A stretch of DNA of 64,000 nt from Ureibacillus manganicus DSM 26584. Its GTDB lineage: Bacteria > Bacillota > Bacilli > Bacillales_A > Planococcaceae. The DNA lies in the NCBI RefSeq assembly GCF_000772945.1, contig NZ_JPVN01000001.1:248001-312000 (forward strand), written 5' to 3'. Made by a program: the position numbers and the translations under genes. This document shows, piece by piece, positions 2,050 through 54,120 of the stretch. Position 1 is the stretch's first letter, and each line of letters begins with the position of its first letter. Below the pieces are notes generated by a model. The model saw nothing but the letters and a program-made list of their open reading frames with translations, ran no database searches and was not told the DNA's origin.

Positions 2050-2290
2050 ATGCGCCTTGGCGTATTTGAGCCCAGATTTTATCGAGCTAAGGCCAACAGG
2101 ATGTTGGTCACTTAGACGTTGCCACAGGACGTGGCGCTCTTAGTCTAAGTTCATCTTTTCAAACTTTAAAAATCTGTGGCATCCGCCGGAGGCTAACTTC
2201 ATTCTGTTCGAACCCCCAAGCAAATAGATTTAATGTTTGCATACAACTCACCACTAATAGAAATTAGTAACTTAAGCTGAATGAAGTTAA
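2050..2290. repeat. Structured intergenic repeat with two AGGA-loop hairpins
   Basis: The block contains nested inverted repeats: GCGCCTTGGCGT at 2052-2063; GCCAAC-AGGAT-GTTGGT around 2092-2108; GCCAC-AGGAC-GTGGC at 2121-2135, enclosed by the 8-bp stem ACTTAGAC/GTCTAAGT (2110-2117/2143-2150). CCAGATTTT near 2073 can pair with AAAATCTGTGG near 2170. TAACTTCATTC (2194-2204) pairs exactly with GAATGAAGTTA (2279-2289). A truncated copy lies at 92-145. There is no coding frame. It ends just upstream of the yjcH ribosome site. Confidence 0.75.
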
Positions 2291-15589: not shown

Positions 15590-15634
15590 AAAAAGAGGCG
15601 TCATTATTCTGAATAATAATGACGCCTCTTACAC
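15590..15634 (-). terminator. Orphan 14-bp hairpin with minus-strand T-tail
   Basis: GAGGCGTCATTATT pairs perfectly with AATAATGACGCCTC. Read on the minus strand it is followed by TTTTTTGTTTG, so it can terminate minus-strand RNA. pepF already has its own terminator at 15831-15858, so this second one suggests a separate transcript or backup termination. The following 15635-15830 region holds a possible tiny frame and an Fnr-type palindrome. Confidence 0.55.
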
Positions 15635-15650
15635 AAAGGGGATGGGAGAA

Positions 15651-15719
15651 ATGTTCACGTTCAAACAAAGGGGTGTATGTTTGTTATGTGATTTATTTCA
15701 CGTATTAAACTTACCATAG
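15651..15719 (+). CDS. Possible 22-residue leader-like frame
   Basis: GGGGATGGGAG sits 2-12 nt before an ATG that opens MFTFKQRGVCLLCDLFHVLNLP. The strong ribosome-site-like sequence and position right after a perfect hairpin are the only support. No promoter is evident. It may be chance. Confidence 0.2.
   Translation: MFTFKQRGVCLLCDLFHVLNLP
15687..15702. promoter_or_regulatory. Crp/Fnr-type palindrome
   Basis: TGTGATTTATTTCACG matches the Fnr/Crp pattern TGTGA-N6-TCACA in nine of ten defined positions. An Fnr-type regulator is encoded at 27718-28416. No promoter is evident at a suitable distance, so its role is open. Confidence 0.35.
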
Positions 15720-20839: not shown

Positions 20840-21096
20840 ATATGGAAAATCGATGACAAAGAGTAGTACATTTGAATTTCGTGCATAGAGAATCTGTGGT
20901 TGGTGAAAACAGAGGACGAAACAAATGGAATGGACTTTGGAGTAGCTTTATGAACGTTAGTAGTAAAGCTCGTTAGCTTCACGTTACGAAGTCTAAGTGG
21001 TCGAGCAATCGACAAGCTGGGTGGTACCGCGGATTTTAAACATCATTCGTCCCATTACGTTATTACACGTATGGACGCATGATGTTTTTTTTATTT
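20840..21096 (+). promoter_or_regulatory. T-box riboswitch (tRNA-Trp) upstream of trpS
   Basis: The core T-box GGGTGGTACCGCGG is at 21019-21032. Stem I features are visible: AGAGTAGTA near 20860, AGAGAATCTGTGGTTGGTGAAAAC distal loop near 20890-20910, and GAA followed by the specifier codon TGG at 20932-20934. The terminator is AAACATCATTCGTCCCAT (21038-21054) with ATGGACGCATGATGTTT (21071-21088) and a T run. Uncharged tRNA-Trp should stabilise the antiterminator and switch trpS on. Confidence 0.95.
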
Positions 21097-37179: not shown

Positions 37180-38637
37180 TTATTTATTATTTGCTGTTTT
37201 ATTTCGTTTAGCTTTTCTCATAATTGCAACAATAAAAGCAATAAAAATTATATATACTAGGCCTAAAGCAGCTAGATATGCAACATTAATACCTCTCTCA
37301 TCAATTACCTGAAAAATCTCTACGATTTCTCTGTCCAGTACGATTGGATATGTACCTTCATCATTTACACGGACAAGCTCTGATTCAAGCATTCCCTGAA
37401 GTTCCTTGCCCTCTCCAACCAAATCACCTGATATATCAATTCTTTGTGTCATACCGGTATTATTAATAACTACAATCCATTTTTCAGTGTCAGAAGATCG
37501 CATAAAAGTTAATAGACCATTTTCATTTTCTATTAATTTAAATTCTCCGTTTCGCAACGTGTCAGAACTATTTCTTAACGTTTGAACATTTTTAATATAG
37601 TCAACCAACTCTGAATCAGTTTTAAAATTGTAGATTTGATGCGATTCCGGACCAGCTTCACCATTCATTGCAATTTCTGTACCATATTGCATTACTGGAA
37701 GCCCTGGTAAAAGTAAAGTTGACGCTATAGATAGTTTTACCCTTGTTGGTGGGTGCGCTTCTACATCCATAATGAAGCGATCTGAGTTTGTATGGTCAAC
37801 CATAAGTTGTGTAGGTTGTCCTTCTCCATTCATAAATGCCTCTAAATTTTTTAATTGTTGTGAGGAATCTTGGTCAACATTTTTATAAATTGAACGGTAA
37901 ATTTGATACGTGTCATCAAAGTAACTAGCATCAAAATCAGCATCGCTTTGTTCGTTAGAGATGACATAAATAGAAGGATTCACTTCTTTTATAGCCGCAA
38001 TTAATTCATTGATGAAATCAGTGTTAGCTCCATCTAAATTGGTTAATCTTACCCCACCAATATCGTAAGTAGAGGCAAATTCAACAACTGATTTTAGTAA
38101 TGCTTGTTGCACATCTACATTCGATAAATCCCATTTTGCTTGTCCATCTGAAGTTTCTAGAACCCAGTTTGCTTTTGATGGGTCTTGAGCCCACTCATGG
38201 TTTTCACTCACAAAAGATATTGGGAAGTCAATCATCGTTTTAATCTTATTGTTGTTTAGTGTTGAAACTAATGTTTTAAATTCTTCTTCTGTACCAAATC
38301 GTGGTTCAAATCCTGTATAAGTTGTCACAAGGGAACCATCATATTGTTCTGTTGGGAAAACAGATCCTAAAGAAACGACAGTAAAGCCCATTTTAGTAAT
38401 TTGGGAAAGTTGTTGTATGATCCCCACAAAATCTCCACCTGTAAAGTACGTTGGGTCTTGTGAGTTTGAATCTAGATCGTTTGCACTTGTGCCATTGAAA
38501 TAACGATCGACTAATAAATCATATATACTTTCATCTGCAATTGTTCTTGTTTCCTCTGCACTCACTATTGGTGCAACTGATAAAGAGGCTGCAAGTACAG
38601 TCGCCGCAATGGTACTAATCCATTTTGTAATCTTCAA
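37180..38637 (-). CDS. Membrane-anchored GH13 (alpha-amylase-like) protein, probably inactive
   Basis: A 485-residue exported protein. A signal peptide (MKITKWISTIAATVLAASLS...VSA) leads a GH13-type barrel: opening SIYDLLVDRYFNG, region I DFPISFVSENH, region II GGVRLTNLDG, region III VISNEQSD, region IV VDHTNSDRF. A C-terminal helix (VAYLAALGLVYIIFIAFIVA) with a basic tail anchors it. The catalytic nucleophile Asp of region II (GxRxD) is Thr here, and the Asp of the NHD motif in region IV is also Thr. Only the Glu of region III remains. It probably binds but does not cut glucans. AGGAG sets the TTG start at 38637. Confidence 0.85.
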   Translation of the reverse strand: MKITKWISTIAATVLAASLSVAPIVSAEETRTIADESIYDLLVDRYFNGTSANDLDSNSQDPTYFTGGDFVGIIQQLSQITKMGFTVVSLGSVFPTEQYDGSLVTTYTGFEPRFGTEEEFKTLVSTLNNNKIKTMIDFPISFVSENHEWAQDPSKANWVLETSDGQAKWDLSNVDVQQALLKSVVEFASTYDIGGVRLTNLDGANTDFINELIAAIKEVNPSIYVISNEQSDADFDASYFDDTYQIYRSIYKNVDQDSSQQLKNLEAFMNGEGQPTQLMVDHTNSDRFIMDVEAHPPTRVKLSIASTLLLPGLPVMQYGTEIAMNGEAGPESHQIYNFKTDSELVDYIKNVQTLRNSSDTLRNGEFKLIENENGLLTFMRSSDTEKWIVVINNTGMTQRIDISGDLVGEGKELQGMLESELVRVNDEGTYPIVLDREIVEIFQVIDERGINVAYLAALGLVYIIFIAFIVAIMRKAKRNKTANNK

Positions 38638-38852
38638 GAATATCCATCTCCTATCAAATATTGCTCGACACTTTTTTATATAATTTCTGAACAATATTAA
38701 ATCCATCGTAATTTTACCAAACAATATAGTTAAAGTGCTATTATTTCCAAATAAATTGAGCATTTGCAAAAACAATTGCGACGAAAAGGTGACAAATGGT
38801 TGACTGATTAACAATACTGGTGGAGGACATCTCATCTTTAATTTCGCCTCGG

Positions 38853-39208
38853 ATATGTACTTGAGATGTGGCATCAAAGACTTTTCAACTTCATTTTCGT
38901 TCGGAAATGTTCTTGAGAAGCGGGATCAAAGACATTTTTTCAGTTGGAAATGTCCTTGAGAGGTCGTATCAAGGACATTTCACCATGGTTTTCAGTCGGA
39001 TATGTCCTTGAGAGGTCGTATCAAAGACATTTCACCATGATTTTCATTCGGAAATGTCCTTGAGAGGCGGGATCAAAGACATTTCACCATGGTTTTCAGT
39101 CGGATATGTCCTTGAGAGGCGGGATCAAAGACATTTCACCATGATTTTCATTCGGAAATGTCCTTGAGAAGCGAGATCAAAGACATTTCATGTTGATTTT
39201 TAGTCCCA
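38853..39208. repeat. 52-bp hairpin array, type I units
   Basis: Seven units, with TGTNCTTGAG beginning at 38856, 38908, 38951, 39003, 39055, 39107 and 39159. Spacing is 52 bp except one 43-bp unit. Each unit reads AAATGTCCTTGA - GAGGCGGGA - TCAAAGACATTT, a 12-bp arm pair with one mismatch, then a 19-20 nt linker such as CACCATGATTTTCATTCGG. Linkers alternate between ATGATTTTCATTCGG and ATGGTTTTCAGTCGG. The array is non-coding, since 52 is not a multiple of 3. It continues in phase into the type II units. Confidence 0.95.
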
Positions 39209-39545
39209 ATTTTCCCTAATCACATTCATGAATGACATTTTAACTGAGTTTCTACTTCCAAATGTTCTTCAGCACCCTGATGAACGACATTTCAACTGGA
39301 TTTCTTCTTCCAAATGTCCTTAATCACCCTAATGAATGACATTTTAACTGGATTTCTTCTTCCAAATGTCTTTCATCACCCTTATGAACGACATTTTAAC
39401 TGCGTTTCTACTTCCAAATGTCTTTCATCACCCTCATGAACGACATTTTAACTACGTTTCTACTTCCAAATGTCTTTCATCACCCTCATGAACGACATTT
39501 TAACTGCGTTTCTACTTCCAAATGTCCTTCATCATCCACCCTAAC
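39209..39545. repeat. 52-bp hairpin array, type II units
   Basis: Seven units beginning at 39211, 39263, 39315, 39367, 39419, 39471 and 39523, every one exactly 52 bp apart and exactly in phase with type I (39159 + 52 = 39211). The unit is AAATGTCTTTCAT - CACCCTC - ATGAACGACATTT plus the linker TAACTGCGTTTCTACTTCC. The arms are the same as type I but the core differs. The first unit is degenerate. The array ends near 39545, after which 50 bp precede the yisL terminator. Confidence 0.95.
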
Positions 39546-39595: not shown

Positions 39596-39631
39596 AAAAA
39601 AACGCAAAGTACATAGTACTTTGCGCAGATA
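39596..39631 (-). terminator. Terminator after yisL
   Basis: On the minus strand GCGCAAAGTACTATGTACTTTGCG forms the stem, followed by TTTTTTTT. Confidence 0.88.
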
Positions 39632-39632
39632 A

Positions 39633-39995
39633 TTAAAATAATTTCGCACCCATTGGTAATTTAAATCCATAGAATAAAGTTGCAAATAAGAATACAGCAA
39701 ATAAAATCCAGAATATCATTGTTGGCTTATCTTTTGATTTACGAACAAGTACCATTTCCATCATACCAATCGTTAAGATTCCTAAAAGGAACTTGATACC
39801 ATATTCCATACCCATACCATAACTCATTGTTTTATAGAACAGTGCGCCACCAGTAATAATAATTAAAATATAGAATAATCGTAAAACCATGTGAATCGCT
39901 TTTGAACTAGATGCTAGTGCTGCAACTAAAAATAATACGATTGCAATAACCCATGTAGCAATGTGTAAATGTGTTGAGTCAGTTAAAAAACTCAT
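39633..39995 (-). CDS. yisL: UPF0344 family membrane protein YisL
   Basis: A 120-residue protein starting MSFLTDSTHLHIATWVIAI with four membrane helices and the conserved MVLRLFYILIIITGG and MEMVLVRKSKDKP stretches of YisL. Function unknown. It follows yisK on the same strand as in B. subtilis (yisK-yisL). GTGGGG precedes the ATG. Confidence 0.88.
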   Translation of the reverse strand: MSFLTDSTHLHIATWVIAIVLFLVAALASSSKAIHMVLRLFYILIIITGGALFYKTMSYGMGMEYGIKFLLGILTIGMMEMVLVRKSKDKPTMIFWILFAVFLFATLFYGFKLPMGAKLF

Positions 39996-53212: not shown

Positions 53213-53366
53213 CTATTAAACACCCACCGTTCGCTACTCACTATTATTGTCATTGTATCATTCTAATAGATTAGTTGCGTAGTGAAAAAGGGATTATTTG
53301 ATAAATTATTAGAAAAAGTTTTTTCTTATGGTAGATTACGTTACGGGGGGTGCAATAATCATGAAA

Positions 53367-54064
53367 CGGCATTCATCTGAGTTATGAAGGACATTTCGGG
53401 TGTGTTTCGGGTTTCGTTTACACTTTCTAAACGAGTGGTTACTTTTTCCATCAGATTTTCATGCCCAAAAGGTCTTCATCATCCTTATGATAACCTTTTC
53501 TAACCGATTTCCCGGCCCAAAAGGTCTTCATCTCCCTTATGATGACCTTTTCCAACCGGTTCCCTGGCGCAAAAGGTCTTCATCACCCTCATGATGACCT
53601 TTTTCAACCGATTCCTTAGCCCAAAAGGTCTTCATCTCCCTTATGATGACCTTTTCCAACCGATTTCCTGGCGCAAATGGTCTTCATCACCCTCATGATG
53701 ACCTTTTCCAAAAGATTTCCCGGCGCAAAAGGTCTTCATTAGCCTTATGATGACCTTTTCTTGCGGATTTTCTGGTGCAAATGGTCTTCATTACTCTTAT
53801 GAAGACCTTTTCCTGCGGATCTTCTGGCGCAAATGGTCTTCATTACCCTTATGATGACCTTTTCTTACGGATTTTCTGGTGCAAATGGTCTTTTCATTAC
53901 CCTTATGAAGACCTTTTCTTGCGGATTTTCTGGTGCAAATGGTCTTCATCACCCTTTTGATGACCTTTTCCTACGGATTTTCTGGCGCAAATGGTCTTCA
54001 TCACCCTTATGATGACTCTTTCCAACCGATTCCCTGGCGCAAACGTCCGTCATAGCCCACTTAA
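53367..54064. repeat. 52-bp hairpin array, type III units
   Basis: Eleven clear units begin (GGTCTTCAT) at 53471, 53523, 53575, 53627, 53679, 53731, 53783, 53835, 53887, 53941 and 53993: every step is 52 bp except one of 54, caused by two extra T in TCTTTTCATT. Degenerate units lie at about 53367, 53419 and 54044. The unit is AAAAGGTCTTCAT - CACCCTT - ATGATGACCTTTT plus a linker such as CTTGCGGATTTTCTGGTGC. The core is nearly that of type II, while the arms carry GG/CC in place of TG/CA. It is non-coding. Confidence 0.95.
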
Positions 54065-54070
54065 ACAGTA

Positions 54071-54120
54071 AAACCATCAGCAGAGACTCTCCTTTCTCTC
54101 CACTGATGGTTATTTCTTTT
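54071..54120 (-). terminator. Terminator after ctpB
   Basis: ACCATCAGCAGAGA pairs with TCTCTCCACTGATGGT with two unpaired bases; on the minus strand it leads into TTTTACTG. Stem strong, T-tail weak. Confidence 0.65.

Follow-up and report, generated by a model that had tools for sequence, protein, structure and literature searches.

Repeat arrays within the Ureibacillus manganicus window

The window, a 64,000-nucleotide stretch of the Ureibacillus manganicus DSM 26584 genome (GCF_000772945.1, contig NZ_JPVN01000001.1, positions 248,001 to 312,000), contains a tandem array of 14 units, array 1, in the gap between a gene for a DUF1516 protein and a gene for a GH13 alpha-amylase-family protein (Table 1). 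Each unit consists of a 33-bp dyad, AAATGTCCTTCAT-N7-ATGAAGGACATTT in its ideal form, and a 19-bp spacer. The last 12 units, beginning at 38948 + 52n for n = 0 to 11, are in exact 52-bp phase, and this step is kept across the boundary between the type I and type II units (39156 to 39208); the one irregular step in the array is that of 43 bp between 38905 and 38948. Tandem Repeats Finder gave a period of 52 on both halves of the array (scores of 418 and 478), and the self-match of the array was 0.80 at a lag of 52 and fell along its multiples, with no other lag from 20 to 319 exceeding 0.40. The array described in the sequence-only reading is therefore real. That reading did not include a second 52-bp array in the window, array 2, which has arms AAAAGGTC/GACCTTTT, or a dyad lying outside array 2 at 103 bp from its first dyad, which is two periods less one base. 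Comparison of the window with Rfam returned three matches, none of which was at the arrays.

Table 1. Features of the 64,000-nucleotide window that are relevant to the 52-bp arrays, and Rfam matches.
Feature	Position	Strand	Details
Array 1, type I units	38853..39207	.	7 units, at 38853, 38905, 38948, 39000, 39052, 39104, 39156; one 43-bp step, the rest 52 bp
Array 1, type II units	39208..39545	.	7 units, at 39208 + 52n to 39520; first degenerate, last only a left arm
Terminator-like hairpin with T run	39602..39626	-	After the DUF1516 gene, directly before array 1 on the gene strand; terminator scan, 1 found, 0.8 expected from shuffles; folds at -14.6 kcal/mol
DUF1516 protein gene	39633..39995	-	Upstream neighbor of array 1
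GH13 alpha-amylase-family protein gene	37180..38640	-	Downstream neighbor of array 1; start taken near 38640
Array 2	53444..54043	.	Period 52, 11.5 copies, dyads AAAAGGTCTTCAT-N7-ATGATGACCTTTT
Outlying dyad	53364..53396	.	103 bp from the first dyad of array 2
Strong hairpin	54072..54111	-	After CtpB, between CtpB and array 2; not listed by the terminator scan (loop over 8)
Region before the PDZ gene	53213..53300	-	Conserved in congeners with and without an array; promoter role inferred
T-box leader	20844-21057	+	Rfam match
RsaE/RoxS sRNA	15595-15701	-	Rfam match
Bacillaceae-1 RNA	2093-2159	-	Rfam match

Distribution of the dyad family

A core pattern of the dyad had 73 hits in the window's own genome, versus one for the reversed control. 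A 52-position covariance model had 168 matches at E<=0.1, and grouping by eye gave about 24 arrays. Four contigs of this genome (C13, C14, C20, and C43) end inside or next to 52-bp arrays, so the arrays seem to break short-read assemblies and are probably under-counted.

A single pattern scan of GTDB genomes identified the dyad in 12 other species of the Bacillaceae/Planococcaceae: Neobacillus (5), Peribacillus asahii, Metabacillus lacus, Ureibacillus acetophenoni (the congener G006), Terrihalobacillus insolitus, and three Bacillus species. In nine of the 12, neighboring dyads are 52 bp apart, while in the loci retrieved N. bataviensis has a 50-bp step and Terrihalobacillus and N. fumarioli have solitary dyads (L046 384-416 and L049 143-175, respectively). 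These solitary dyads, of the same sequence, are followed by T-rich DNA, look like terminators and could be ancestors of the array unit. With the strict dyad model, matches at E<=1e-4 were found in 5 of 398 genomes of the class and 2 of 398 of the phylum, own genome included (17 candidates scored per genome). In the order there were matches in 33 of 261 genomes at E<=0.01 (27 candidates scored), including 12 of 25 in the own genus; outside the genus there were only one to three weak hits per genome, the 21 hits of genome G001 having the appearance of another element. The dyad family itself is, therefore, narrow and patchy.

The sequence-only reading had proposed that spacing is under selection, as opposed to the array being simply a recent duplication, and had named the retention of the 52-bp period in related genomes as the observation that would bear on this. 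Counting gaps of 170 bp or less with a dyad-only pattern, 85 of 92 neighbor gaps are exactly 52 bp in 16 loci of other genera (chosen by the dyad pattern), as are 156 of 167 in the own genome. Over all catalogued arrays, 298 of 309 single-unit gaps (those between 45 and 59 bp) are exactly 52 bp. In comparisons between genomes (281 pairs from 32 arrays, 21 of these in the own genome) the dyad is 77% identical, a value that is raised by the fact that the loci were found with a dyad pattern. The spacer, which was not used to find them, is only 31% identical, with 27% expected from composition, yet its length stays at 19 bp. Neutral drift that erased the letters should also have changed the length. 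The interpretation is thus supported, although selection is inferred and not shown, and at its own site array 1 is shared only with the nearest sampled relative, G006, in the 25 congeners examined.

The 52-bp period in arrays of unrelated sequence

The period is not tied to this sequence. We sampled about 2.4 Mb from the own genome, congeners and other Bacilli. In a first 1.5 Mb, 20 of 30 intergenic arrays have period 52 and one has period 51; this count sets apart the chosen regions of the own genome, but includes one locus (L185) near known hits in genome G264. In 2.28 Mb, 33 of 61 tandem arrays of at least 150 bp have period 51 or 52, with many unrelated units; this count left out the eight chosen regions of the own genome, L185, and arrays shorter than 150 bp. 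A larger catalog of 64 arrays, of which 60 have a period of 52 bp, includes loci chosen because they carry the dyad and is not an unbiased count. In the window's contig there are eight arrays of period 51/52 in 304 kb, which extrapolates to about 100 per genome. None was seen in 240 kb of four other genera of the family, and 60 kb of genome G020 had one 51-bp array of 18 copies.

The 62 catalogued arrays of period 51/52 outside G020 fall into 19 families by shared 9-mers. Inverted repeats scored better than shuffles in 44 of 64 array consensuses (based on 100 shuffles from a seed that is not repeatable), often with a span of 27 or 33 and a TGTCC..GGACA-like core, and so some families may be distant kin. 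Others, such as several in the congener G014 and one in genome G013, have no such core. Another repeat family was seen in G014 (L150, L161, and L164) and in the congener G002 (L146), which have short arrays of 34-45 bp built on a palindrome like TGTACCTGGTACA / GTGCCTGGCAC.

Helical phase

A unit of 52 bp is five turns of the DNA helix at 10.4 bp per turn. With one unit per family (19 families), the fifth harmonic of the A+T-step signal holds 0.155 of the power, versus 0.078 in intergenic 52-mers (P = 0.0004) and 0.063 in shuffles, while the purine/pyrimidine signal shows nothing. The families may share ancestry and so are not fully independent. In 28 of the 33 arrays of period 51/52 the A+T/G+C pattern peaks at 10.2-10.5 bp, although only three harmonics of 52 lie in the scanned range of 8-14 bp, so about one in three would do so by chance. 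Of the five exceptions, four are among the eleven arrays of G014, including the array at the array 1 site (13.0 bp). As controls, a family of 126-127-bp tandem repeats in M. lacus (L219, L220, L222, and L224) peaks at 8.4-8.5 bp, and only 10 of 26 open-frame arrays fall in 10.0-10.8 bp, versus 27 of the 35 others.

A second kind of array has steps of about 20.5-21 bp, or two turns. Of 14 further arrays with periods of 21 to 143 bp, which we selected ourselves, 12 peak at 10.2-10.6 bp; however, seven of the 14 have a frame open through nearly the whole array, so coding is not excluded for those. Long arrays with steps of 21 bp (L083 143-1120, congener G009) and about 20.5 bp (L096 1-1030, congener G266) lie near the sites of arrays 2 and 1, respectively. 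In L096, which has no such open frame, gaps are mostly 21 bp with some of 18-19 (mean 20.57), and the motif stays in phase (R = 0.90 at 10.25 bp). Although higher-order repeats mean that the gaps are not independent, a fractional unit held through unequal gaps is hard to explain by simple duplication.

Static curvature does not fully explain the arrays, as a wedge model placed only 3 of 19 families above the 95th percentile of shuffled sequence; an AA/TT-only model placed 7 of 19 there, and together these values do not settle whether the units are intrinsically curved. Similarly, the A+T/G+C pattern of the spacers is barely conserved between genomes (0.52 agreement, about 0.49 at random shifts).

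Genomic position and turnover at orthologous sites

Of 63 arrays, 11 lay at an edge; of the 52 that were placed, 34 are in co-directional, 13 in convergent and 5 in divergent gaps, compared with 480, 121, and 142 background gaps, respectively. At the CtpB-PDZ site of array 2 the gap is 914 bp in the window and 832 bp in G002, which has an array of 73-bp period, versus 138-322 bp in the 21 other congeners in which both genes were seen. The region upstream of the PDZ gene is recognizable with or without an array in the five loci compared.

Beside the DUF1516 gene, a repeat scan identified arrays in 5 of 25 genomes: that of the window, G006 (52 bp, same kind), G014 (52 bp, unrelated sequence), G266 (about 20.5 bp), and G268 (102 bp). 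By eye, G004 has an additional two or three 52-bp copies. The GH13 gene follows in G006, G268, and G014, while in G266 the contig ends in the array. Different species, therefore, carry different arrays or none at these two orthologous sites; variation between strains of one species was not examined.

Hairpin or dyad

The sequence-only reading described the units as hairpins. Stem cells with changes on both sides exceed those in all 500 shuffles (65 vs. 34), but related sequences can do so without structure, and the number of pairs with such a change was reached by 30 of 500 shuffles. In addition, 372 of 3107 stem cells (12%) are non-wobble mismatches, often fixed across an array. G.T pairs (126) exceed A.C pairs (58) on the CCT-loop strand, which is opposite to the genes in 15 of 19 co-directional arrays, a count that includes one array (L121) assigned on a single pattern match and probably mis-signed. 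The AGG-loop strand is the G-rich strand of its surroundings in 28 of 35 arrays, which may reflect replication strand composition. The window units fold at -8 to -11 kcal/mol, weaker than the adjacent terminator-like hairpins at -14.6 and -21.6, and a terminator scan flagged one unit of array 2, with 0.9 expected. As no RNA data were consulted, these values leave it undecided whether the units could act as intrinsic terminators. The element behaves more like a symmetric double-stranded site than a sense RNA stem, and "hairpin" is better read as a dyad-symmetric DNA element.

Comparison with known repeats

REP elements and bacterial interspersed mosaic elements (BIMEs) are, like the dyad family, palindromic, extragenic, present in many copies and mostly in co-directional and convergent gaps downstream of genes (PMC3733652; PMC2817692). 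However, a search for the REP-associated tyrosine transposase (Y1_Tnp, PF01797) had no match in the own genome at E<=0.001, with 5 of 14 control genomes positive. The units of an array run head to tail and do not alternate as in BIMEs, no GTAG or CGTC tag was seen beside the dyads by eye (no scan was run), and unrelated sequences share the one fixed 52-bp period. The arrays also resemble intergenic VNTRs or minisatellites, as tandem non-coding arrays whose presence differs between species, but one period dominates across unrelated units and genera, with helical phasing inside the unit.

As the sequence-only reading held, CRISPRs, ISs and protein-coding repeats do not explain the array: the spacer repeats with the rest of the unit (0.19 spacer divergence within arrays) and 52 is not a multiple of 3. 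There was no match to array 2 in plasmid and phage collections, to array 1 in plasmids (it was not searched in phages), or to the dyad pattern in viral contigs.

An A+T pattern in step with the helix and concentrated between genes has been described (PMC516772; PMC3940949; PMC4060949), but as a diffuse statistical signal, whereas here there are discrete tandem arrays of whole-turn units with weak predicted static curvature. In a search of the PMC literature, in which subscription papers are mostly absent, we recognized no report of 52-bp or helix-phased intergenic arrays in Bacillales. Whole-turn spacing of sites, as in these arrays, is a feature of plasmid centromere and iteron arrays (the 43-bp sopC repeats, the 20-bp parC repeats and replication iterons), in which repeated sites are spaced by near-whole helical turns for a protein that oligomerizes along one face. 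Those are single loci with a known binder, while these are many chromosomal arrays for which no binder is known, binding not having been assayed here.

Interpretation

Array 1 belongs to a genome-wide class of intergenic tandem arrays held in register with the DNA helix, which suggests that cells keep the DNA in step with its own helix between genes for a reason not yet known. Our best reading, to which we assign a probability of about 0.45, is that these are DNA-level architectural arrays, probably same-face docking sites for a DNA-binding protein. In this view, a 33-bp dyad-symmetric core plus 19 bp of filler of fixed length but free sequence would put every core of the window's family on the same helical face. 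As the arrays sit between the end of one gene and the start of the next, and in the two window cases between a terminator-like hairpin and the next gene's upstream region, they are probably not transcribed and act as double-stranded DNA. Most likely a nucleoid-type protein would bind the dyads and oligomerize along one face, making a phased, bendable protein-DNA block that separates neighboring transcription units in supercoiling or nucleoid terms. The sequence itself demonstrates the period and its conservation, the dyads, the helical phasing of A+T/G+C, the position of the arrays and their turnover at orthologous sites; in contrast, selection on helical phase, the lack of transcription, the existence of a binder and an insulating role are our inferences, there being no known binder, expression or phenotype. 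A bolder and less likely, though not excluded, possibility is a sequence-independent structural code, in which these Bacilli seed their intergenic regions with roughly a hundred arrays per genome whose shared property is a helix-integral unit length (five turns, in others two), acting as a genome-wide scaffold of same-face docking blocks that separates transcription units, with the length rather than the letters under selection.

The main rival, which we consider possible but less likely, is a neutral satellite without function that grows and shrinks by slippage and unequal exchange, its length inherited from one ancestral dyad unit or set by a mutational process that measures DNA in helical turns. 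The fast gain and loss between congeners, the likeness of units within an array and the TGTCC..GGACA-like core shared by many families are consistent with this. However, spacers have lost their letters but not their length, arrays without the core and those with periods of 20.5-21 bp also keep helical phase, and we know of no mechanism with such a ruler.

The remaining alternatives fit worse. Tandem RNA hairpins in read-through transcripts from the upstream gene, which would stop transcription or protect RNA, are unlikely: the location of arrays after gene ends, the both-sided stem changes, the terminator-like unit of array 2 and the solitary dyads with T runs favor this idea, but the fixed mismatches, the excess of G.T pairs on the strand opposite to the genes, the weak folding, the terminator-like hairpin that the arrays follow and the occurrence of the same period in unrelated arrays without hairpins do not. 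Similarly unlikely is an origin as REP/BIME-like remnants of a palindrome spread by a Y1-type transposase or another mobile element, for although the dyads are palindromic, intergenic, patchy in species and present in hundreds of copies, the own genome has no Y1_Tnp at E<=0.001, the units are head to tail with constant period, and there was no match to array 2 in plasmids and phages, to array 1 in plasmids, or to the dyad pattern in viral contigs. That array 1 is an operator region of the GH13 gene only, as its place directly upstream of that gene might indicate, is very doubtful given that about 24 arrays of this dyad family in one genome lie beside various genes and that the repeat scan found an array beside the DUF1516 gene in only 5 of 25 congeners.

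Whether bacterial intergenic DNA is shaped by helical phase as a structural signal is an old question that has been argued from faint genome-wide periodicities. These arrays would turn it into discrete objects with constant unit length, natural empty sites in sister species and amenability to simple tests. If a binder exists, it would be a new kind of bacterial chromatin element; if none does, the arrays would expose a mutational process that measures DNA in helical turns.
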